Virus record (IMG/VR): IMGVR_UViG_3300030107_003937
Location: 1 to 29,391 of that record
Length of the DNA stretch: 29,391 bases
From: a virus
Direction: 5' to 3' (one strand)
Shown here one piece after another: positions 11 through 12,268 of the stretch. A model generated the notes under the pieces. That model did no database searches. It had not been told where the DNA came from and saw nothing but the letters and a program-made list of their open reading frames with translations. How positions within the stretch are numbered: position 1 is the first letter of the stretch; every line of letters begins with the position of its first letter. The translations under genes were made by a program, and so were the position numbers.

Positions 11-1414
11 ATGCTCGAACTAACGAGCAAAGTCGATTGGGAAATGGGGAGGAGAGATTTTCGTTTCTTTTTTGAGGACATCTGTAAATTCCAATTAGCC
101 CATTTTCACAAAGAATGGTATGAAAATGCAGAGAAATACAACAAAGTGTGTGTAATTGCAAGTCGTGATCACGGTAAATCGGTATTCTTTCGATGTTATC
201 TCCTATGGAAAATGGCATACAATCCAGGAACAGAAGTCCTGTTTTTCAGCCACAGTCAGCATCAATCAATAGATCATATGGGCAAAATGGATGAATTGAT
301 CGTCACCACTCCTGCCTTAGCCCATCTAAAACCGAAAAGAGGATGGGCGAAGCAATTGTTCAAGATGACAAATAAATCATCCATACGAGCTATGTCCATA
401 GGAAAAGCGGTTCGTGGTGCTCACCCCGACATAGTTGTCCTGGATGACATTCTATCAAGTGAAGCCGATACTCAATTGAAATCCATATCTACATGGTTTT
501 ACACTGCATTACTTCCTGTTCTCCACCACACGGCTCAAATGTGCGTTGTAGGAACTCCTTTCTCATATACTGACCTTTATTCAGAATTGAAAGGATTAGA
601 TGGTTATTGCGTAAGAGAGTATCCTGCAATTAGTGAAGAAACAGGTGATCCTTTGTGGCCCGAGCGTTGGAGTTTGGAAGCACTCAACACTAGGCGGGGC
701 GAAATGACTTCAATAGCATTCACCAGAGAGTATCTATGCAAACCAATAGCGAGCGAGTCAAGCCTATTCCCCGAGGAGATGCTTGATAGGGTCAAAGATG
801 ACTCGCTTGCGCTTTCGTATTATCCCGATCCGGATGAGTCATTGAATTACTACATTGGATGGGATCCGGCAATTAGTGCAGATAGGAGTGCAGACTATAC
901 TTGTATGATAGTCATAGGCATGGATGAGAATAGGCATAAGAGAATAGTCCATGTCCACCATGAGAAAAACATGAATTTCAATCAACAGATTGACAAGATC
1001 ATTGAATTGAATGCCCGATTTAATCCTGTCATTATTGAATTGGAAACAAACAACTTCGCTATGGCTTTCAACCAGGTCTTGCAAGAAATCAGCGATTTGC
1101 CTATCAAACCATTCAACATGAGCCGTATGAAAAAAGAGGCTCTAATGCACACGCTTCAACTTCATTTTGAGCAGAAGCACCTAATCATCCCATACAAAGA
1201 TGAAGGAGCAACAAGAAGGCACATGAATACCATGTTAAGTGAACTTTCATTCTTTACCATGCTTGAAAATGGAAAGATGGAAAGTCTTGGTCGGCATGAT
1301 GACATGGTGATCGCCCTTGCACTTTCGGTACAGGCGACTAAGGAATATCGGGAAAACATCATTATCCTAGATGGTGAGACATGGAAGAATAGGTTGGGGT
1401 GGGTCGATGCGTGA
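11..1414 (+). CDS. terL: Terminase large subunit (DNA-packaging ATPase/nuclease)
   Basis: This is the motor that pumps viral DNA through the portal into the procapsid and cuts the concatemer. The N-terminal ATPase shows a Walker A-like motif ASRDHGKS (residues 50-57), a Walker B run IVVLDD (141-146) and a GTP coupling motif (181-183). The C-terminal RNase H-like nuclease shows acidic residues at D285 (in YIGWDPAIS), E344 (in VIIELETNNF) and D430/D431 (in GRHDDMVIALAL), as in T4-type large terminases. At 467 residues its length is normal for the family. The ATG at 11 is the first start visible, but no in-frame stop precedes it within the window, so the true start could lie upstream. It overlaps the next gene by 8 nt. 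The family call is firm; the exact start is not. Confidence 0.93.
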   Translation: MLELTSKVDWEMGRRDFRFFFEDICKFQLAHFHKEWYENAEKYNKVCVIASRDHGKSVFFRCYLLWKMAYNPGTEVLFFSHSQHQSIDHMGKMDELIVTTPALAHLKPKRGWAKQLFKMTNKSSIRAMSIGKAVRGAHPDIVVLDDILSSEADTQLKSISTWFYTALLPVLHHTAQMCVVGTPFSYTDLYSELKGLDGYCVREYPAISEETGDPLWPERWSLEALNTRRGEMTSIAFTREYLCKPIASESSLFPEEMLDRVKDDSLALSYYPDPDESLNYYIGWDPAISADRSADYTCMIVIGMDENRHKRIVHVHHEKNMNFNQQIDKIIELNARFNPVIIELETNNFAMAFNQVLQEISDLPIKPFNMSRMKKEALMHTLQLHFEQKHLIIPYKDEGATRRHMNTMLSELSFFTMLENGKMESLGRHDDMVIALALSVQATKEYRENIIILDGETWKNRLGWVDA

Positions 1415-2807
1415 TTACCTGCAACCCATTGAAGGGGTAGAGGATTTGACGGATTCAGTAGAGAAGATTGCACCCGCTATAGGTGCTGCTATTATGTCCG
1501 GAGGTAGAGCAGTTATGTCATCTCCAACTGGTCGTAAAGTAGTAGCTCAAGGTGCAATGATGGGCGTTGATGCACTCAAGAATAAATTGCAACAGAAACA
1601 AGAAGAAACTCAACAGGCAGAAGAAGAGTTGAGAATGGCAGAGGAACAACAGGCTCAACAGGAACAACAAAATCAAACAATGCCGGATCAACCTGCAACA
1701 GAAGAAGGCCAGGGAGCGGAGATTACAGGGATGCAGAATCCCGATAGCCCTCCTCCTACGGATCAGGAAGGAACAGAACTTCCTACCGAAGCACCTGCTC
1801 CGCCTCAAGTTCCATTGATCAAATATCGTACATGGTTTCCAGAACATTTTGGCATGACGGGGAGAGAAGTCACTGAAATTCTTGTTAAGGCTAAAGAAAA
1901 CAAGGTTTTGGATGCTATTCAACCTCTTTTGAAATTAGAGAAACAGGCAATCCTGGATCAGTTTGTTGGAGTGGATCCTCAGTTGTACAATGAATTGCCA
2001 TTAACTGATTTGGACTACGATGCTTTGAATCAAAACTCAGAACGATTAAATCTGCCATTTAGGAGATTTGTGAAAACATGGGAAAGTGATAGTAGTGAAG
2101 AAAGCAGAGAGTCTGCAACACGAACCTGGAGAACCACTATTGACAAGTCAGAAAGATTGTCGCACCGTGAAAGATCTATACTCAATGGTTGTAGAGGCAT
2201 ACTCGCTGAAAGAGGGGCTTTGAATGCTCAGACACTAAAGGCATATGGCATTCAAGCAAGCCCCGCAGAAATCTCATCTTTGATTAAATCTCACGGATTC
2301 CTCTTTGACATTATTTCTATTGGTCAATTTACCAAGTCACAGGGGCGTGGTTTATTCTATGACATTAGACGAGGTGATGTAATTCTCAAAGATGCAGATT
2401 CTTTCTTAGCAGGTCTGATAGAGAACGGTGGTAGGTTCAAATTTGATTCCAGGCTATATCCCAGGCTTGAAATTGATTTCAGAGCACCTACTGCTCCCTG
2501 GTATGTGGAGGCACTAAACAAACAAGGATTAGGAAATGTAAGTGCAAAAGGAAGAGGTCTTGTAATTGAGGGCCAGGATTCAGTAAAGAAGGCTCTTGAG
2601 ATTGCAGAACCACATTTGAATGGAAATAGTAGGGGCTTCCCATCAGCTAGAAATATGTTGAAAGCCTTGAGAGGAGATAACGATACTCTCATGGTAATTG
2701 CGTATGAATCGCTAAACAAGACCGAAAAGACCCAATTACTCCGCAAACACAAATTAAGTGTTGATGACTTCGACCAAATGAGAGAGGAGGTGCTGGCAAG
2801 TGGTTGA
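1407..2807 (+). CDS. Packaging-cluster protein with wHTH and degenerate LAGLIDADG-fold domain
   Basis: The function is unproven. I place the start at ATG 1407 (466 aa), behind a G-rich GGGTGGG stretch and overlapping terL by 8 nt; an in-frame ATG at 1371 would give a much longer overlap. Residues 18-57 are rich in small residues. Residues 58-90 form a Gln/Glu-rich likely coiled coil, and 91-137 are Pro/Glu-rich. Residues 252-325 read as a winged helix-turn-helix (helices near 256-269, 273-281 and 285-296, then a wing). Residues 329-421 match the LAGLIDADG fold: FLAGLIENGG (333-342), strands such as YPRLEIDF (351-358) and LVIEG (385-389), then EPHLNG (401-406) and a closing helix. The usual catalytic Asp at position 8 of the motif is Gly341, so it is probably not a nuclease. 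Lying between terminase and portal, it may bind DNA, for example as a small-terminase analogue. That role is inference. Confidence 0.72.
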   Translation: MRDYLQPIEGVEDLTDSVEKIAPAIGAAIMSGGRAVMSSPTGRKVVAQGAMMGVDALKNKLQQKQEETQQAEEELRMAEEQQAQQEQQNQTMPDQPATEEGQGAEITGMQNPDSPPPTDQEGTELPTEAPAPPQVPLIKYRTWFPEHFGMTGREVTEILVKAKENKVLDAIQPLLKLEKQAILDQFVGVDPQLYNELPLTDLDYDALNQNSERLNLPFRRFVKTWESDSSEESRESATRTWRTTIDKSERLSHRERSILNGCRGILAERGALNAQTLKAYGIQASPAEISSLIKSHGFLFDIISIGQFTKSQGRGLFYDIRRGDVILKDADSFLAGLIENGGRFKFDSRLYPRLEIDFRAPTAPWYVEALNKQGLGNVSAKGRGLVIEGQDSVKKALEIAEPHLNGNSRGFPSARNMLKALRGDNDTLMVIAYESLNKTEKTQLLRKHKLSVDDFDQMREEVLASG

Positions 2808-4308
2808 TAGTAAGAAAATGGAGCGAATGTTTGCTGCCATAGGGATGGACATGGAAAGGCATAACACTCCAATACCATCTATGCCTCTCTTTACAGAAGG
2901 TGTGCAAGAACCCCCTCTTCTCCAGGGAATAACTATTCCTGCACTCTATGCAGCAGCATACGAATGCATGGTTTTGAGATCAATTCTCAATCATCTATGT
3001 GTTGAGACATTCCGTAAGGGATGGGAATGGAAAGCGAAGTTTGTTTCTAAATGCGTTGAATGTGAAGCCGAATTTCATCAAGAAGTGGATTCATGCAAGG
3101 CTTGTGGTAGTGAGGTTCGCAAGGCCGATAAATCTCAAATTGAGTATGCTGATGCCATTCTCAAAAATGGCAACCGCATGACTCAGAATTTCATTGATGT
3201 CCTAAGAGAAGTTGAAATGGATCTAAACATTGTTGATGATGCATACCTGGTCTTGACGAAGGAGTATTTCATTGACCCCGCTACTAAGCAACCCATGTTT
3301 TTCAGAATAAGAGAAGTATCCAGGGCGGATCCAATTTTCATGCGTATTATTTCAGATAAGAGAGGGATTAGAGGTGGTTCTCAATATACGAGCCTCATTG
3401 ATCGCTCGTTTAGAACCAGTGATCCTGATGCAGTATGTCCTGTATCTGGTATGCAAGTAGTGCCGATTCATTACATCAACCTAGCAGGTGTGGGCAACGG
3501 CCAAGTCTATACTGAGGGCGAAATAATCCATATTAGCAAGTGGTCTCCATCTAAATTGTATGGAAGAAGCCCTGTTGCAACTATGTGGCGACAAGTGAAT
3601 ACTCTCATTGCTATGGATAACTATGTGTATTCCGCATATCAGAAGAGGAGAATGCCTCGTGGCGTTATGGTCATTAAATCATCCAACATGGAAACCGTTG
3701 AAAGGACGGCCAGGAATATCCAGGAGCATCTTGAGCGTGATCCTAGCTATGTACCTACAATTGGCGTTGAAACCGAATCGGGTCGTGGTGGACTTGAGTA
3801 TGTCCGTATGATGGATACCCTGGAAGAATTGCAGTATATCCCAATCAAGGATGACATACGGCAACGCATATCTGCATACTATGGGGTTTCTAACGTGTTC
3901 ATGAATGATGTATCGGGAGGGGGTCTAAACAACGAGGGTATGCAGATCGTAGTCACGAATCGTGCGTTAGCCTATGCTCAGTCAATATACAACAGGCATC
4001 TATTCCCTCTTTTACTTGATGCCTTTGGCGTGAATGAATGGACTATCACATTGAATCCTCATGAGGAAGAAGATGAAATCATGCGATTCCGCAGGGATGA
4101 GATGGCTATCCGCAATATGATGCAGATGAAGCAAGCAGGATACAAAGCAAACCTAAGAGATCAGATTGATGATAAATTCCTTGAGTTTGATTACCAAGAA
4201 CCGGATCCGGCAGAAGTAGCCGCCGAGCAACAAGCGGCTGCAGCCGAACAAGGAGGCGGTGGTGCTGCTCCTCCTGGTGCGCCCCCTGAAGGTGGTGCGC
4301 CTCAATGA
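2800..4308 (+). CDS. Portal protein with inserted zinc ribbon
   Basis: The portal forms the ring at the capsid vertex through which DNA enters and to which the tail attaches. The call rests on its place after terL, its length (502 aa), and features typical of portals: IHISKWSP followed by LYGRSPV in the middle, a long helical stretch with RRMPRGVMVIK, the segment SAYYGVSNVFMND, and an acidic helical C-terminus. A CxxC-x10-CxxC cluster (C85, C88, C99, C102) near the N-terminus looks like a zinc ribbon, which is unusual for portals. The last ~30 residues are Ala/Gly/Pro/Gln-rich. The GTG at 2800 is chosen because AGAGGAGG (2783-2790) sits 9 nt upstream; the first in-frame ATG (2818) is too far from it. 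It overlaps the previous gene by 8 nt and the next by 4 nt. Confidence 0.83.
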   Translation: MVDSKKMERMFAAIGMDMERHNTPIPSMPLFTEGVQEPPLLQGITIPALYAAAYECMVLRSILNHLCVETFRKGWEWKAKFVSKCVECEAEFHQEVDSCKACGSEVRKADKSQIEYADAILKNGNRMTQNFIDVLREVEMDLNIVDDAYLVLTKEYFIDPATKQPMFFRIREVSRADPIFMRIISDKRGIRGGSQYTSLIDRSFRTSDPDAVCPVSGMQVVPIHYINLAGVGNGQVYTEGEIIHISKWSPSKLYGRSPVATMWRQVNTLIAMDNYVYSAYQKRRMPRGVMVIKSSNMETVERTARNIQEHLERDPSYVPTIGVETESGRGGLEYVRMMDTLEELQYIPIKDDIRQRISAYYGVSNVFMNDVSGGGLNNEGMQIVVTNRALAYAQSIYNRHLFPLLLDAFGVNEWTITLNPHEEEDEIMRFRRDEMAIRNMMQMKQAGYKANLRDQIDDKFLEFDYQEPDPAEVAAEQQAAAAEQGGGGAAPPGAPPEGGAPQ

Positions 4309-6354: not shown

Positions 6355-9300
6355 ATGAGTGATTATGTCAAACACAGGACTGATGTGGTTCTTTCATCAA
6401 TAATGGGCCTTGAGCCTCCTATGGATGATTACCTCAAAAGCCTTGATGGGAACATAATCACGAAAGAAGATTTGGCCGCTATGGCAATGACGGCGAATGC
6501 ACCGATCTATTCAATGAGGGATCTTGGTTCGGCTTTGCCTCCTTCTCAAATGGTGATCCCTGATGATTATCAATCATACCTGGCAGGACATTCCAAGATT
6601 AGCACATCTCCTTTGAAGGATTGGCCTATGGTGGATGAAAACAATGATTTCGGTGAACATCATCCATTCGGCATGAATTCAAATTGCTGTCCTTTATTGC
6701 AGAATGCGGCTCATGGCGAGCCTCATTATGTGGATCACTTGTTTGATTTCATCACCCATGCTGCAGAAAATCACAAGGAAAATGAACGCATGAATAAATT
6801 ATCTGGGGAAGATGCCATGCTTTTTGGCAATCCGGATGTTTCTATGCTTGATCTGTACAACAAAGATATGAATCGAGATTATGGTGCGGATGAGAATTGG
6901 GAACAACAGAAAAGAGAATACCTTGCTAATGAGTTTGGGCTTCTTCCTTTTCTGTTTGGCTTGGAATGGCACAGTCCTGGAGAAGCTGAGAGATTCTATG
7001 ACATTCTTTCTAATTTGAGTCAAACATCGGATCCGGAAAGTCCAGAAGCCAGGAGTCTGTTCAACAGAATGCAGGAGAAAACAGGAATCAAGTGGGATAG
7101 GTATCTCCGAAATTGGAGGGATAGATTCACACCGTTGTCTGCATGGTGGCAAAGGCCAAGCGATAGATCCGGCCCTACTGCATCTCCTCCGGCAGATTTA
7201 GCCAATGCTATGCTCACTTCTCCCTTCAGCAGTAATCAAGAACCAGGGCATAATTACCATTGGTGGGAGCCATATCAGTTTCATGGAGGTGTAGGAAGAA
7301 GCATTGATTCGTTGAAATCTGTAATGACTCAATCATATCCAGGTGTCTTTGGTGACAATTGGCTTAGTGATTTCTTACTTGAGGGAGTGCCTGTTGATGG
7401 GCCACATATGTTGTCCGGTTCGCATTTTCCTGCATCATCTAATTCAGCTCCGGAATTATCATCCGCCCTTTCATCACTTTCAACAGGGGATCAAAGTTTC
7501 GAGAGAAGAAGGGCTAATTGGACTCATGCTTCCATGCATAATCACCTTCATCCTTCTGAAATAAATGATGCAGAGGGTAGGATGACTATACCAACCGAGG
7601 CATTGTTGATGAGTAGGTTTGGCGATGATCTGATGAAGGTCACAGAATTAGGGAATCCAAAGGCAGGGAGGCTTAGAGAACAGCATCCCAATTCCAATAG
7701 TACCTACTATGATGTGCATAATCGCCATGCAACCAATAGTGATCAGGCATTACAACAGGTCATGACGGATTTAGCAACCCAGGTTATGCAACAATTTGGT
7801 TCTGACATTTTTGCACCAGTAAATGGCGATGTGAATACCAATACAATTGCTAGAGGAAATATCGGGCAATTGGCCTCAGCCGCAAATCACCTATTGATGA
7901 GAGGAGAGGGTGTCCATGATGGAGAATACATGATCCCAGATGTTTCATCCGGTCAATTATCTCAGAAGATAGGGGCTTTTGGCCCTGTATCTCCTATGTC
8001 TGAATCTGTTGTCGCTCCGCTATTCAATTCCGGCAATACAGATTCCTGGGGTCATGAGATGCCCGCAACCTTGACTTACAAATGGGACAGGAATAGCAAT
8101 GGTTTGATTTGGGATAACAAGGAGTCGCCATTTACTATTCTTCAAAGAACGCCACATAAGGGATTGGTGAGTGCGGTGGATCCTAGTTTTGCAGATAAGC
8201 AAATCCATACAAAGAATAAGGAAATCAATGCGCTTTCAACAAATAGTCTTGGATATAGCAATCTGACATCGCTTCTTCACAAATCGGATGACTATGAATT
8301 AACAGGCATTTTTGATTCCATGATAGAACCCGCTCATGTAGTGCGTGATTTAGATGATATGGACACTCTCAAAGGCTTTAGTGGCGATTGGGTTGTTCAG
8401 AAGAAACCGAAAGGCAAGAGAGTTCTCGTGAAGAAATCTGGAAAAAGCATAGATCCCATTAGCTTACCAAGCAAGGTAAAGAAGTCATTGAAAGATACAA
8501 TCCAGGGAGATGCTACTTTTGATGGGTATGTCAGTGGCGATGTGCTTACTGTAGTGGATCTCCTGGTTCACAAAGATACAGATATGAGTCAAGAGCCGTT
8601 GTCAGATAGGGTTGATGCCCTCAGAACATTGTATTCAACCACCGATCATGTTGAGTTCCCTGCTCCTAATTCATGCGTGAATACTGACAAAGAGGGGCTA
8701 ATCAAGACTATTGCAAACTTAGATCGTACTGATTTATTGATTCGGGATGCCCAATCAACATTCATCAAAGGAAAAGAAGTGCATCCGAAGTGGATACTTT
8801 ACCCTCAAGATAAGATTAGCAAAGAAATGCCTCTCCCGCCTCTTCCCGAAATGAGTATTAGGAATTCAGATCTTGTTTTGGAGTATCCAGGGATATACAC
8901 TCCTGTTATTGTGAAAATTGAAAATGATGACAATGGGCCATATGTTGCAGAATACAACGGTTTGCCTCATCTCGTGAAACAGGCTCAAACCCAATTTAGA
9001 CTATGGAGTCCTGTTGCTGCTCATTATGTTGGTTTGCCTGATCAGGCTATCCCATCATATCGCAAACGCCCTTTGTTTAGGAAATCAATTGACAAAGCCC
9101 CAGAAGTAAATGTGCAAGGTGAGCATGATGATGAGGATAGTGTGTCTAACATCATGCGTCATGCCAGGAAAGCCATTACATCAGAAGAAAGGGCGTTGAA
9201 TGACAAGGAATTGATTGCTCATGTTGATGGTCTCACTCAAAGTATGCTTGACAAGTATGCAGGAGAGTATGGCCTGGAACACACGGAAGATGGCAAATGG

Positions 9301-9663
9301 ACTGTCAATGAGGCTATTGATGACGATATAGCGGAAAAATTCTCATTCCCTCGCATGAATCAAGCATCTTCTGATGGTGGTGCATGGTCGGGTATGCAAG
9401 CAGACATTACAGCTCCAACAGGCCCAACCGAAATAACGGATGAAGAAAATACAACATTTGGCAATCCCCGAAGAAATCAGCAAGAGCCGGATCCGAATGG
9501 AGGGTTTAGGCCATTAAGCATGATCATTGATACTGAAAACGGCCAGGCTACATTAGATGTTAAGGATAGAAAGGCAGTGATTCGTTTTCCCAAGAAAGAT
9601 AAAGATCACGAAGAGAGGGAAAACGAGGTACTGCCCGCCCTTCGTCATGACAACGCTCTCTAA
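6355..9663 (+). CDS. 1102-residue protein with inactive ATP-dependent DNA ligase-like domain
   Basis: The overall family is not recognised. Residues ~660-820 follow the nucleotidyltransferase domain of ATP-dependent DNA ligases in order. An EPAHVVRDLDD lead-in resembles the segment before motif I. WVVQKKPKGKRVLV (679-692) is motif I KxDGxR with K684, G687 and R689 kept but Asp changed to K686. FDGYV (722-726) is motif III with the Glu changed to Tyr. VVDLL (733-737) and EPLSDRVDALRTLY (747-760) are motif IIIa. DLLIRD (793-798) matches motif IV without its Glu. FIKGKEVHPKWILYP (803-817) matches motif V with its lysines lost. The rest (1-640 and 830-1102) has no domain I can name; the C-terminus is acidic and disordered-looking. 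The start ATG has GAGGTGGG just upstream. Its place before the protease suggests a virion or head-assembly protein. Ligase activity is unlikely. Confidence 0.7.
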   Translation: MSDYVKHRTDVVLSSIMGLEPPMDDYLKSLDGNIITKEDLAAMAMTANAPIYSMRDLGSALPPSQMVIPDDYQSYLAGHSKISTSPLKDWPMVDENNDFGEHHPFGMNSNCCPLLQNAAHGEPHYVDHLFDFITHAAENHKENERMNKLSGEDAMLFGNPDVSMLDLYNKDMNRDYGADENWEQQKREYLANEFGLLPFLFGLEWHSPGEAERFYDILSNLSQTSDPESPEARSLFNRMQEKTGIKWDRYLRNWRDRFTPLSAWWQRPSDRSGPTASPPADLANAMLTSPFSSNQEPGHNYHWWEPYQFHGGVGRSIDSLKSVMTQSYPGVFGDNWLSDFLLEGVPVDGPHMLSGSHFPASSNSAPELSSALSSLSTGDQSFERRRANWTHASMHNHLHPSEINDAEGRMTIPTEALLMSRFGDDLMKVTELGNPKAGRLREQHPNSNSTYYDVHNRHATNSDQALQQVMTDLATQVMQQFGSDIFAPVNGDVNTNTIARGNIGQLASAANHLLMRGEGVHDGEYMIPDVSSGQLSQKIGAFGPVSPMSESVVAPLFNSGNTDSWGHEMPATLTYKWDRNSNGLIWDNKESPFTILQRTPHKGLVSAVDPSFADKQIHTKNKEINALSTNSLGYSNLTSLLHKSDDYELTGIFDSMIEPAHVVRDLDDMDTLKGFSGDWVVQKKPKGKRVLVKKSGKSIDPISLPSKVKKSLKDTIQGDATFDGYVSGDVLTVVDLLVHKDTDMSQEPLSDRVDALRTLYSTTDHVEFPAPNSCVNTDKEGLIKTIANLDRTDLLIRDAQSTFIKGKEVHPKWILYPQDKISKEMPLPPLPEMSIRNSDLVLEYPGIYTPVIVKIENDDNGPYVAEYNGLPHLVKQAQTQFRLWSPVAAHYVGLPDQAIPSYRKRPLFRKSIDKAPEVNVQGEHDDEDSVSNIMRHARKAITSEERALNDKELIAHVDGLTQSMLDKYAGEYGLEHTEDGKWTVNEAIDDDIAEKFSFPRMNQASSDGGAWSGMQADITAPTGPTEITDEENTTFGNPRRNQQEPDPNGGFRPLSMIIDTENGQATLDVKDRKAVIRFPKKDKDHEERENEVLPALRHDNAL

Positions 9664-9680
9664 ATCCTGACAGCCCTGTC

Positions 9681-11069
9681 ATGTTGTCATTCATATATGA
9701 TTGCGAAAAGTCAGATTGTTTGATGGCAACCGCAGAGATGCTTCAACCTTCGATTGGATGGTCGGCCTTTGGATCCGATTTCCTAATCAAAGAGGATTCT
9801 GGAAGTGATCTGTATGTTGCAGGATATGCAAGTGTGGATATGGTGGACAAGCAGGGAGATAGAATCCCTACTCATGCTCTCAAGAAAGCATTTGGCAAAT
9901 TCATGGAAAACAAGGCTTACAGAAATGTTCAGCTAGCCCACAGTGGCATCCAGGTTGGAGAAGTCGTTGATTCCTTTTCAGATTCACAGGGGCGTGTATG
10001 GAAATCCGAGGTGGATGATCACGGCCTCTTTGTCGTTTGTAAGATACGAAGCGACATACAGAAGGCACGAGAAGTGCAAAAGCAGGTACGAGATGGAGAT
10101 CTTCGTGCCTTTTCAATAGGAGGCCAGGCTTTGTTCCGTGTGAATAAGCATACACCTGAGCATGGCAACCACCGCGAGATTACTGACCTTGAGTTGCATG
10201 AGATTACTCTCTGCAAGAAGGGAATTAACCCCGAGGCCAGTTATACAATCCTAAAGATGGATGAAACGGAAGTGACTAAAATGACGGACAGCGAAGCATT
10301 AGTAGAGATACGAGACAGCCTAAGTGGAATACTGAAGGCGATTGACAAGAACGAAGAGAAATCTGAGGAGAAATCCGATGAGAAAAGCGAAACTCCGGAA
10401 GTGGAGAAGTCCACCCAGGATGCGCTTAACTACATTGATACTCTTGAGAAGTTTGCACACGAGCAGGGTGTTGATCTCAACGGGCTAAGGACACACTTTG
10501 GCCTAGAGAAAGCATACATGGTCGGAGTAGATGGCAACAGCGGCCACACTCACAGAGGTCAGGGTGACGAGGTTGGATCCGGAGAGGATGCATCTGAGCC
10601 ATCTTACCCATCTCTTTCAGCTCCAGGTGGCAACAAGTATGTCATCAAGCAGCCAGGCGTGAAGAATATGGCTTACAACAGGCCATCGGGCAACAAGAAT
10701 GTAATCAAGTCGCCTGGTCAAGTCACACCTGCCGGATTGGAGAGAGGATACAGGGCATACGCTTCTCTGCGTGACGAGGAGGCCATGAAGGCAATCGTCA
10801 AGCAGGATTGGGAGTCTCGCTACGACAGCGAAACCGCCCGTGCTCTTGAGGTTCAGAAGGCAAACGACTTCGGCGGGCAGATCACTGCTCTAAAGTCCGA
10901 GATTGCGAATCTAAGATCCGAGAACGGAGAGATTCAGAAGTCTGCAACCGCAGTACCAACAACCGACATTCGAGTCCCCACCCACGAGGAATTTGCTCAG
11001 ATGGGCAATGACCTTGAGTCCTGGAAGGCTACCGAAGAACTAGCAAGGAGGGCACTAACAGGCGAGTAA
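9681..11069 (+). CDS. Prohead maturation protease fused to scaffold-like C-terminus
   Basis: The N-terminal ~195 residues are an HK97-type prohead serine protease (peptidase U35/S78 class), which trims scaffold and capsid proteins during maturation. Key features are VAGYASVDMVDKQGDRI (46-62), the His in NVQLAHSG (H87), the Ser in LRAFSIGG (S145), and the conserved ending DLELHEITLCKKGINP (169-184). Residues 201-462 look like a scaffold: an acidic Lys/Glu-rich stretch (224-245), a Gly/Pro/Asn-rich middle with HTHRG, and a C-terminal coiled coil (~395-420, for example ITALKSEIANLRSENGEIQ). An alternative start is ATG 9723 (MATAEMLQPSIGW); neither start has a clear ribosome binding site. Codon use shifts toward C-ending codons near residue 201, where an internal start is proposed. 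Confidence 0.85.
   Translation: MLSFIYDCEKSDCLMATAEMLQPSIGWSAFGSDFLIKEDSGSDLYVAGYASVDMVDKQGDRIPTHALKKAFGKFMENKAYRNVQLAHSGIQVGEVVDSFSDSQGRVWKSEVDDHGLFVVCKIRSDIQKAREVQKQVRDGDLRAFSIGGQALFRVNKHTPEHGNHREITDLELHEITLCKKGINPEASYTILKMDETEVTKMTDSEALVEIRDSLSGILKAIDKNEEKSEEKSDEKSETPEVEKSTQDALNYIDTLEKFAHEQGVDLNGLRTHFGLEKAYMVGVDGNSGHTHRGQGDEVGSGEDASEPSYPSLSAPGGNKYVIKQPGVKNMAYNRPSGNKNVIKSPGQVTPAGLERGYRAYASLRDEEAMKAIVKQDWESRYDSETARALEVQKANDFGGQITALKSEIANLRSENGEIQKSATAVPTTDIRVPTHEEFAQMGNDLESWKATEELARRALTGE
10268..10280 (+). promoter_or_regulatory. Internal ribosome binding leader for scaffold start
   Basis: GGAAGTGACTAAA lies directly before an in-frame ATG at 10281 inside the protease gene. The core GGAAGTGA plus 5 nt to the ATG is the same arrangement as the leader of the capsid gene (5 nt) and nearly that of the decoration gene (6 nt). 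GGAAGTGA is one base off an extended Shine-Dalgarno GGAGGTGA. The same 8-mer also occurs at 9801 and 12866 without an evident gene start, so the core alone is not proof. Confidence 0.5.
10281..11069 (+). CDS. Candidate free scaffold protein from internal start in protease gene
   Basis: This nested reading frame is the same frame as the protease C-terminus and would yield a 262-residue scaffold beginning MTDSEALVEIRDSLSG. Support: it starts exactly after the protease domain; it has the GGAAGTGA leader shared with the capsid and decoration genes; and codon use becomes richer in AAC, TAC, CAC and GAG from about here onward, as in the highly expressed capsid gene. In phage lambda the scaffold is likewise made from an internal start of its protease gene (C/Nu3), so the arrangement has precedent. 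The protein is acidic near the N-terminus, with a coiled coil near its end, as expected of a scaffold. It would be made in excess over the protease fusion. This is inference from sequence layout. Confidence 0.5.
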   Translation: MTDSEALVEIRDSLSGILKAIDKNEEKSEEKSDEKSETPEVEKSTQDALNYIDTLEKFAHEQGVDLNGLRTHFGLEKAYMVGVDGNSGHTHRGQGDEVGSGEDASEPSYPSLSAPGGNKYVIKQPGVKNMAYNRPSGNKNVIKSPGQVTPAGLERGYRAYASLRDEEAMKAIVKQDWESRYDSETARALEVQKANDFGGQITALKSEIANLRSENGEIQKSATAVPTTDIRVPTHEEFAQMGNDLESWKATEELARRALTGE

Positions 11070-11085
11070 TCGTCATGGGTGACAC

Positions 11086-11110
11086 GGAGAAATAATAGGA
11101 AGTGAAAAAA
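11086..11110 (+). promoter_or_regulatory. Translation leader of the major capsid gene
   Basis: An A-rich leader, GGAGAAATAATAGGAAGTGA followed by five A, precedes the capsid ATG at 11111. It shares the 15-mer AATAATAGGAAGTGA with the leader of the following gene (12284-12308). In that second copy the GTG within GGAAGTGA is out of frame with the gene, so the leader is conserved as RNA or DNA rather than as coding sequence. This argues that the in-frame GTG at 11102 is not the capsid start. Confidence 0.7.
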
Positions 11111-12268
11111 ATGAGTGGATCAAAAGGATACATTAGAACAATCGAGGACATGGAGAGGCTATACTACGGTGCGGGTGCAGGTGCAAACGCATGGGCCTAC
11201 TCCGGAACAGACTTGCTCAAGGCGGATTCGCCTCTTGTGAGCAGCACAACCGGAACATATCAGGCCATCTTTGGCCGAAAGGTCTGGTCACAGCTCAACC
11301 AGGAGTTCAACGCCTTTAGCATACTACCGAAGAAGCCCTGGGAGAAGTCCGGATGGAGGGTCGTCACCGACAAGCCTGACAGGGCAAAGGGTGGCGGACT
11401 ACCTGAGAACGGAACTCTACCAGAAACCACCAAGCCTACCTTCGCAGAGGTCAGCACAAAGCCCAAGACTGTGGCTCACACCTTTGACCTAAGCGAGACA
11501 GCAATGTTCCTGGCCGACAAGGATGACGGTCTTGGAGATGCAAGGGCAGTAATGAAGATGGAGATGGCAAAGCACCACGCCGAGCACATCAACGTCATGC
11601 TTCTGGAAGATGTGGACACCACAGCAGGAAACGACTTCGAGTCACTTGACCGATGCCTTTCCTCGTCATTTGTGGAGACCGCAACAGATTTCGTCACCGC
11701 AGCAGCAGATCACAATCAGTACAACCTAACCAGGAGTGCAGGTTCTTCTCAGTCATGGTATGATGCTAACTGTGACGCAGGATCCGCAGGTGCGGCTCGT
11801 GCGCTCAGTCTGAATGTCATTGACGGAATGTTCAGAAGCATATGGGAGAAGGGTGGACAGCCAAAGGTCATACTGACAGGCTACGATACTCTTGAGAAGA
11901 TCCAACAGCTACTACAACCTCAGCAGAGATTTACTGAGATGAAGAGAGTAGTCCCAGGCGTGAACGGTGTCAAGGGTGTTCCAGGTATGGAAGCGGGCTT
12001 CGTAGTCGCAACCTACAACGGCGTACCTCTGATCCCTTCAAAGGATGTCAAGGCAGACTCCGGAGAACTATCAAGGATGTATTTCATCGATTCAGACTAC
12101 ATCTACTTCTGCACGGCCAAACCGACCCTATACCACGAGTCTGGTATTGAAACAGGGGATCCATTCGGAATCAACAGGCTAGGACAGATGGGAATGTTCC
12201 ACACGATGGGCGAACTATGGCAACTATTCTACCGAGCACACGGAAAGGTGAGGGACATCGCAGCCTGA
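11111..12268 (+). CDS. Major capsid protein, HK97 fold
   Basis: This is the shell protein, 385 residues from ATG 11111. Support is its place right after the protease/scaffold gene, its length, and fold-typical features: an N-terminal helical arm, WRVVTDKPDRAKGGGLPENG (an extended-loop-like stretch), TVAHTFDLSETAMFLADKD (start of the spine helix region), HHAEHINVMLLEDVD, a P-domain QPKVILTGYDTLEKIQQLL, an A-domain-like GVPLIPSKDV, and the ending YRAHGKVRDIAA. Codons are strongly biased to C-ending and CTA/GGA forms compared with neighbouring genes, as expected for the most expressed virion protein. A GTG at 11102 would add three residues but lies inside the conserved leader. I see no long N-terminal delta domain; scaffold seems to come from the gene before. 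Confidence 0.85.
   Translation: MSGSKGYIRTIEDMERLYYGAGAGANAWAYSGTDLLKADSPLVSSTTGTYQAIFGRKVWSQLNQEFNAFSILPKKPWEKSGWRVVTDKPDRAKGGGLPENGTLPETTKPTFAEVSTKPKTVAHTFDLSETAMFLADKDDGLGDARAVMKMEMAKHHAEHINVMLLEDVDTTAGNDFESLDRCLSSSFVETATDFVTAAADHNQYNLTRSAGSSQSWYDANCDAGSAGAARALSLNVIDGMFRSIWEKGGQPKVILTGYDTLEKIQQLLQPQQRFTEMKRVVPGVNGVKGVPGMEAGFVVATYNGVPLIPSKDVKADSGELSRMYFIDSDYIYFCTAKPTLYHESGIETGDPFGINRLGQMGMFHTMGELWQLFYRAHGKVRDIAA

Follow-up and report, generated by a model that had tools for sequence, protein, structure and literature searches.

The window analysed here (the whole stretch of 29,391 nucleotides from IMG/VR virus record IMGVR_UViG_3300030107_003937) encodes, in the open reading frame (ORF) at 6355..9663 of the plus strand, a 1102-aa head-cluster protein in which a domain with the predicted nucleotidyltransferase fold of ATP-dependent DNA ligases appears to be catalytically dead. 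We regard it as probable (about 0.75) that this is a late head-assembly protein with a captured ligase domain, whose adenylation chemistry was lost and which was kept as a non-catalytic module. This reading is grounded in the predicted fold, the loss of the catalytic residues throughout the clade, the fixed three-part architecture of the protein, its fixed position in the gene order, and purifying selection. The ligase annotation itself is not new; what is new is that the domain appears dead, that it sits in a head protein, and that a component of the published replisome has probably been misassigned. Throughout the clade, a fold known from DNA repair would have been recruited for the assembly of virus heads.

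With the window sequence alone, the DNA ligase family PF01068 was matched weakly and below the Pfam cut-off (E 0.035-0.045), and such single-sequence matches under the curated cut-offs are what favours a chance or misread motif pattern in an unrelated fold. Among the 43 homologues, PF01068 was the family matched most often, by 28 of them (best E, 4.9e-4). Profile-profile comparison of 60 homologues with 36 archaeal ligases was performed with hhalign (probability 61, E 8e-5, score 38.0); the alignment paired K684, K686, G687, and R689 with the Lys, Asp, Gly, and Arg of KxDGxR. The best score among 100 column-shuffled ligase profiles was 24.2 (probability, <=3.7), the reversed-profile control scored 16.8, and the other regions of the 1102-aa protein scored below 15. 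Searches of the PDB sequences with the domain (phmmer and hmmsearch) gave no relevant match, so a fold search was needed. Residues 646-889 were modelled with AlphaFold2 from 60 sequences (pLDDT 87.5, pTM 0.81; an earlier input of 17 close homologues gave a poor pLDDT of 53). Each of the top 50 Foldseek matches in the PDB was a DNA ligase, a complex containing a ligase, or a capping enzyme, the best being the Pyrococcus ligase 2cfm (E 1.2e-7, probability 1.00), and DNA ligases were also prominent among the matches to viral structures. The profile and structure comparisons suggested with the original prediction thus returned ligases and capping enzymes, not an unrelated fold. Given the confident model, the uniform fold matches, and the failure of the shuffled profiles, we assign a chance pattern hardly any probability; at the level of the predicted structure it is refuted, and the ATP-dependent DNA ligase nucleotidyltransferase fold of residues ~646-889 is confirmed as a prediction. 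Note that the best viral-structure match was an unnamed viral protein of 827 aa (BFVD A0A516LT18, E 1.1e-10), which is possibly a distant pseudo-ligase head protein of another virus.

The ligase-like region had been placed at 8332-8814; it is found there, but extends further, to approximately residue 889. As delimited with AlphaFold2, Foldseek, and hhalign with the shuffled controls, the nucleotidyltransferase domain together with two C-terminal beta hairpins and a helix occupies 8290..9021 (plus strand; residues 646-889). After motif V, the predicted model continues with four strands and helices; the Foldseek alignments, taken as extents without alignment detail, run beyond the nucleotidyltransferase domain. 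The C-terminal OB-fold domain of ligases (PF04679, DNA_ligase_A_C) had no sequence match.

Motifs I, III, IIIa, IV, and V are present in the ORF in the predicted order and at the predicted positions (all on the plus strand), and their residues were tallied over 82 distinct homologue sequences. The motif I remnant QKKPKGKR (residues 682-689; 8398..8421) has K684 at the nucleophile position and K686 where Asp is required; in the family, residue 684 is K in 56, M in 22, V in 2, and R in 2 sequences (the nucleophile Lys is replaced in 26), and at residue 686 Asp does not occur (K34, E28, and others). In the motif III remnant FDGY (residues 722-725; 8518..8529), Y725 takes the place of the catalytic Glu (Y58, V15, F8, T1; Glu in 0/82). 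The motif IV position TDLLIRD (residues 792-798; 8728..8748) has TD for the catalytic EG, residue 792 being variable with Glu in 8/82 and the next position being Gly in 3/82. The motif V position HPKWILY (residues 810-816; 8782..8802) is without the catalytic lysines: residue 815 is L46, R20, H10, and K1 (one Lys among 82), and residue 817 is A56, P9, and T9, with zero Lys. The structural elements are retained: motif IIIa TVVDLL (residues 732-737; 8548..8565) keeps D735 in 82/82, PLSDR (residues 748-752; 8596..8610), corresponding to the PL.ER signature that follows IIIa in ligases, keeps R752, and G687, D723, D735, and R752 are all invariant. The family also has invariant residues of its own (P685, H739, R797, D798, K805, H810, and W813). 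Since the catalytic residues are lost in 82/82, the prediction that a large head-cluster protein contains a catalytically dead ligase-like domain held, and the sequences confirm a putatively dead domain across the clade, not only in the window. The description of K684 and R689 as kept is correct for the window, but in the family K684 is found in 56/82 and R689 in 64/82.

A basic residue, mostly Lys, occupies position 683 or 684 in 80/82 sequences, and two sequences have neither Lys (QV). Together with the invariant polar residues near the motifs (D723, H739, R797, D798, K805, and H810), this is what could be expected of a different nucleotidyl-transfer or nucleotide-binding chemistry operating via non-canonical residues; the nucleophile position has, however, no invariant Lys, as the two QV sequences illustrate, and motifs I, III, and IV have lost their acidic residues or vary at these positions; we consider such chemistry unlikely. 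The dN/dS of the ligase-like part was ~0.05-0.10 where the synonymous sites were unsaturated, these values being rough because the synonymous sites are near saturation; the domain is therefore constrained and not decaying.

The domain lies between two other parts of the protein. The N-terminal region (residues 1-640; 6355..8274, plus strand) is conserved and matches no recognisable family, and the most conserved block of the whole protein (residues 976-1025; 9280..9429, plus strand; conservation 0.77-0.82 in 43 diverse members) lies C-terminal of the pseudo-ligase. Family searches of the N- and C-terminal parts revealed neither a shared family nor a domain recognisable as an effector, and no PHROGs entry was matched by the 1102-aa protein. 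Every one of the 319 complete homologous ORFs (80 distinct) combined the N-terminal, ligase-like, and C-terminal parts, and no ORF without the ligase-like part came up in scans that used just the N-terminal or just the C-terminal part. Relatives of the protein were encoded by 504 matching stretches in one viral scan; no homologue was found in the phage collection by whole-protein or domain searches. After the pseudo-ligase, at window residues ~890-915, several clades have a variable Gly/Ala/Ser-rich linker (e.g., KEGAAAGGGG...TVTSS), which could be a flexible segment or a protease cleavage zone.

The surrounding genes form a head module on the plus strand: the terminase large subunit (11..1414; phrog_38, E 4.6e-72), the portal protein (2800..4308; phrog_18178, E 2.6e-54; PF04860, E 4e-11), and, directly downstream of the 1102-aa ORF, the prohead/head maturation protease (9681..11069; PF04586, E 4.7e-10; phrog_23555), followed by the major capsid protein (MCP; 11102..12268; phrog_24667, E 6.3e-52), which is related to that of haloviruses HVTV-1 and HCTV-1 (tblastn with HVTV-1, E 1e-36). 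The order portal, small genes, 1102-aa protein, and protease was found in 15/15 loci, and the MCP came next after the protease in the 14 loci whose sequence reaches that far. It is this gene order that suggests a head or virion location of the 1102-aa protein. Across the same loci, the 1102-aa protein was 37-77 % identical vs 74-97 % for the portal and MCP; because it diverges faster than these, the protein may be accessory, not lattice-forming. Between the terminase and the portal, the ORF at 1371-2807 has a LAGLIDADG-looking stretch (FLAGLIENGGRF); this fast-diverging ORF keeps its position in each of the 15 loci compared. Two disarmed enzymes had been claimed for the head module; the dead ligase is one, but the LAGLIDADG-looking ORF was matched by neither Pfam nor PHROGs.

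An HK97-fold MCP related to Druskaviridae, found together with terminase, portal, and protease, is the gene set that marks a magrovirus head module, and the window has this set. On the relation of the MCP to HVTV-1/HCTV-1 and the published descriptions (PMC10160649, PMC12999244, PMC10768690), the window is therefore from a magrovirus, a group reported to include some of the most abundant viruses in the plankton of the surface ocean (PMC10160649). The complete head module, including a homologue of the 1102-aa protein, was also found, with the same gene order, on a 106-kb contig (CACGHY010000002.1) of the Poseidoniales single-cell genome AG-422-I20, with 93 % (MCP) and 90 % (terminase) identity to the window; this contig, from a close relative, is a direct link of this virus lineage to a Poseidoniales host.

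We propose that the catalytic domain of an ATP-dependent DNA ligase was captured by a late head-assembly protein of a magrovirus, that the adenylation chemistry was lost before the divergence of the sampled clade, and that the dead domain was retained as a non-catalytic module. The 1102-aa protein would act at the portal vertex or inside the head, where the ligase fold may hold a partner without sealing; this partner may be duplex or terminal DNA or, with about the same likelihood, another head protein, each standing clearly below even odds. DNA binding by the pseudo-ligase domain is plausible from the modelled fold. The domain (mean net charge -6) and real ligases (mean -5) could not be told apart by net charge, and bulk charge was therefore rejected as a sign of DNA binding. 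The earlier suggestion that the domain was kept for DNA or nucleotide binding is thus unsupported, as the family does not conserve the nucleophile Lys and the charge is not discriminating. A different role, that of an internal multidomain protein (like T4 Alt) that is ejected and enters the host with the DNA, and whose pseudo-ligase would, for example, cap incoming DNA ends or bind a host repair or replication factor, would agree with the fast divergence relative to the MCP and portal and with the zeta-toxin/ADP-ribosyltransferase proteins that haloviruses have between portal and protease; however, no sequence relation was detectable between the window protein and these halovirus proteins, and the rest of the 1102-aa protein is without a recognisable effector domain. 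We regard this role as a serious rival, though a rather improbable one.

ICTV profiles credit magroviruses with a nearly self-sufficient replisome, including an ATP-dependent DNA ligase, such that few or no host replication factors may be needed (PMC12999244, PMC10768690). An 'ATP-dependent DNA ligase' is also found in the magrovirus annotation of PMC10160649, and one report places the magrovirus ligase beside the prohead protease (PMC7318539). Since the published ligase adjoins the protease and the 1102-aa gene lies just upstream of the protease in every locus checked, the two are very probably the same gene, and the ligase annotation of magroviruses very probably refers to this dead protein. 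If this is the case, the claim of self-sufficiency needs correction, and the virus relies on its host for ligation. Note that one paper reported DNA ligase in nearly all vOTUs, although some of these have no structural genes; a separate ligase may thus exist in other groups of magroviruses. The literature annotation implies that the 1102-aa protein itself works in the virus replisome as an ATP-dependent DNA ligase, which would be in line with the predicted fold and with the ligase genes described for magroviruses (PMC12999244, PMC10768690), one of them beside the prohead protease (PMC7318539); the motif I Asp and motif III Glu are, however, absent in 82/82 sequences, the motif V lysines are gone except for a lone Lys in one sequence, the nucleophile Lys is replaced in 26/82, and DNA_ligase_A_C was unmatched in 11 contigs, and we hold a working ligase to be very unlikely.

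The search for an active ligase in the rest of the genome, which had been proposed as a check, found none in the 32-kb record or in its longer relatives. In 15 virus contigs (74-108 kb), searches with ATP, NAD, and RNA ligase profiles and our own ligase profile gave sub-threshold matches only, and the open frames with these matches all measure 1,113-1,185 aa, as long as this ORF. Of these 15 contigs, 4 carry DNA polymerase B, which was detected in 5/17 magrovirus-like contigs (74-108 kb); MCM was detected in none of the 17, and replication modules are divergent in or missing from the 17 contigs; the absence of a ligase is therefore best supported for the polymerase-bearing contigs. Exact terminal repeats were not found in eight long contigs, and thus the completeness of the contigs is unproven. 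An NAD ligase is encoded in the single-cell genome with the homologue, and the host ligase in this one host cell genome examined is thus of the NAD+-dependent type. Some Poseidoniia genomes have a short ATP ligase (427-463 aa), with KxDG at motif I in some and KxNG (Asp to Asn) in others. We tentatively suggest, at odds well short of even, that magroviruses lack a DNA ligase of their own, that the gene counted as such encodes the dead fold of the head protein, which grips packaged or terminal DNA unsealed, and that the host ligase seals the nicks.

Compared with known systems, the published magrovirus ligase (PMC7318539, PMC12999244, PMC10768690, PMC10160649) comes from the same virus group and, in one report, from the position of this ORF, but is described as a working replication enzyme, whereas the gene matched to it here by position encodes a large head-module protein with a putatively dead domain. 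With the archaeal ATP-dependent DNA ligases (PF01068; Pyrococcus furiosus 2cfm), the window domain shares the predicted fold, the motif order, the structural residues of motif IIIa, and the Arg of PL.ER; it differs in having no motif I Asp, motif III Glu, motif IV Glu, or motif V Lys, in a nucleophile Lys that is not conserved, in the lack of a DNA_ligase_A_C sequence match, and in being embedded in a head-cluster protein. The m3G-cap-binding domain of Snurportin-1 (PF21974) is a non-catalytic binding relative of the nucleotidyltransferase fold of capping enzymes, and was matched weakly by one homologue (E 0.048); Snurportin-1 is, however, a eukaryotic nuclear-import adaptor with no close sequence relation to the window domain. 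Direct homology of the window protein to the halovirus proteins of the same slot, HVTV-1 gp115 (6623-10564) and HCTV-1 gp109 (6929-10561; each in its own genome record), was rejected, as there is no sequence similarity. What is shared, among viruses whose MCPs are related, is a large multidomain protein that lies between portal and protease and includes an enzyme-like domain, and enzyme-like domains recur in this head-cluster slot in haloviruses and the magrovirus; the halovirus proteins (1,210-1,313 aa) differ in having P-loop zeta-toxin domains (in both) and an ADP-ribosyltransferase domain (in HVTV-1), not a ligase fold. Since unrelated large halovirus proteins occupy the same slot, it may suit large, possibly internal, multidomain proteins.
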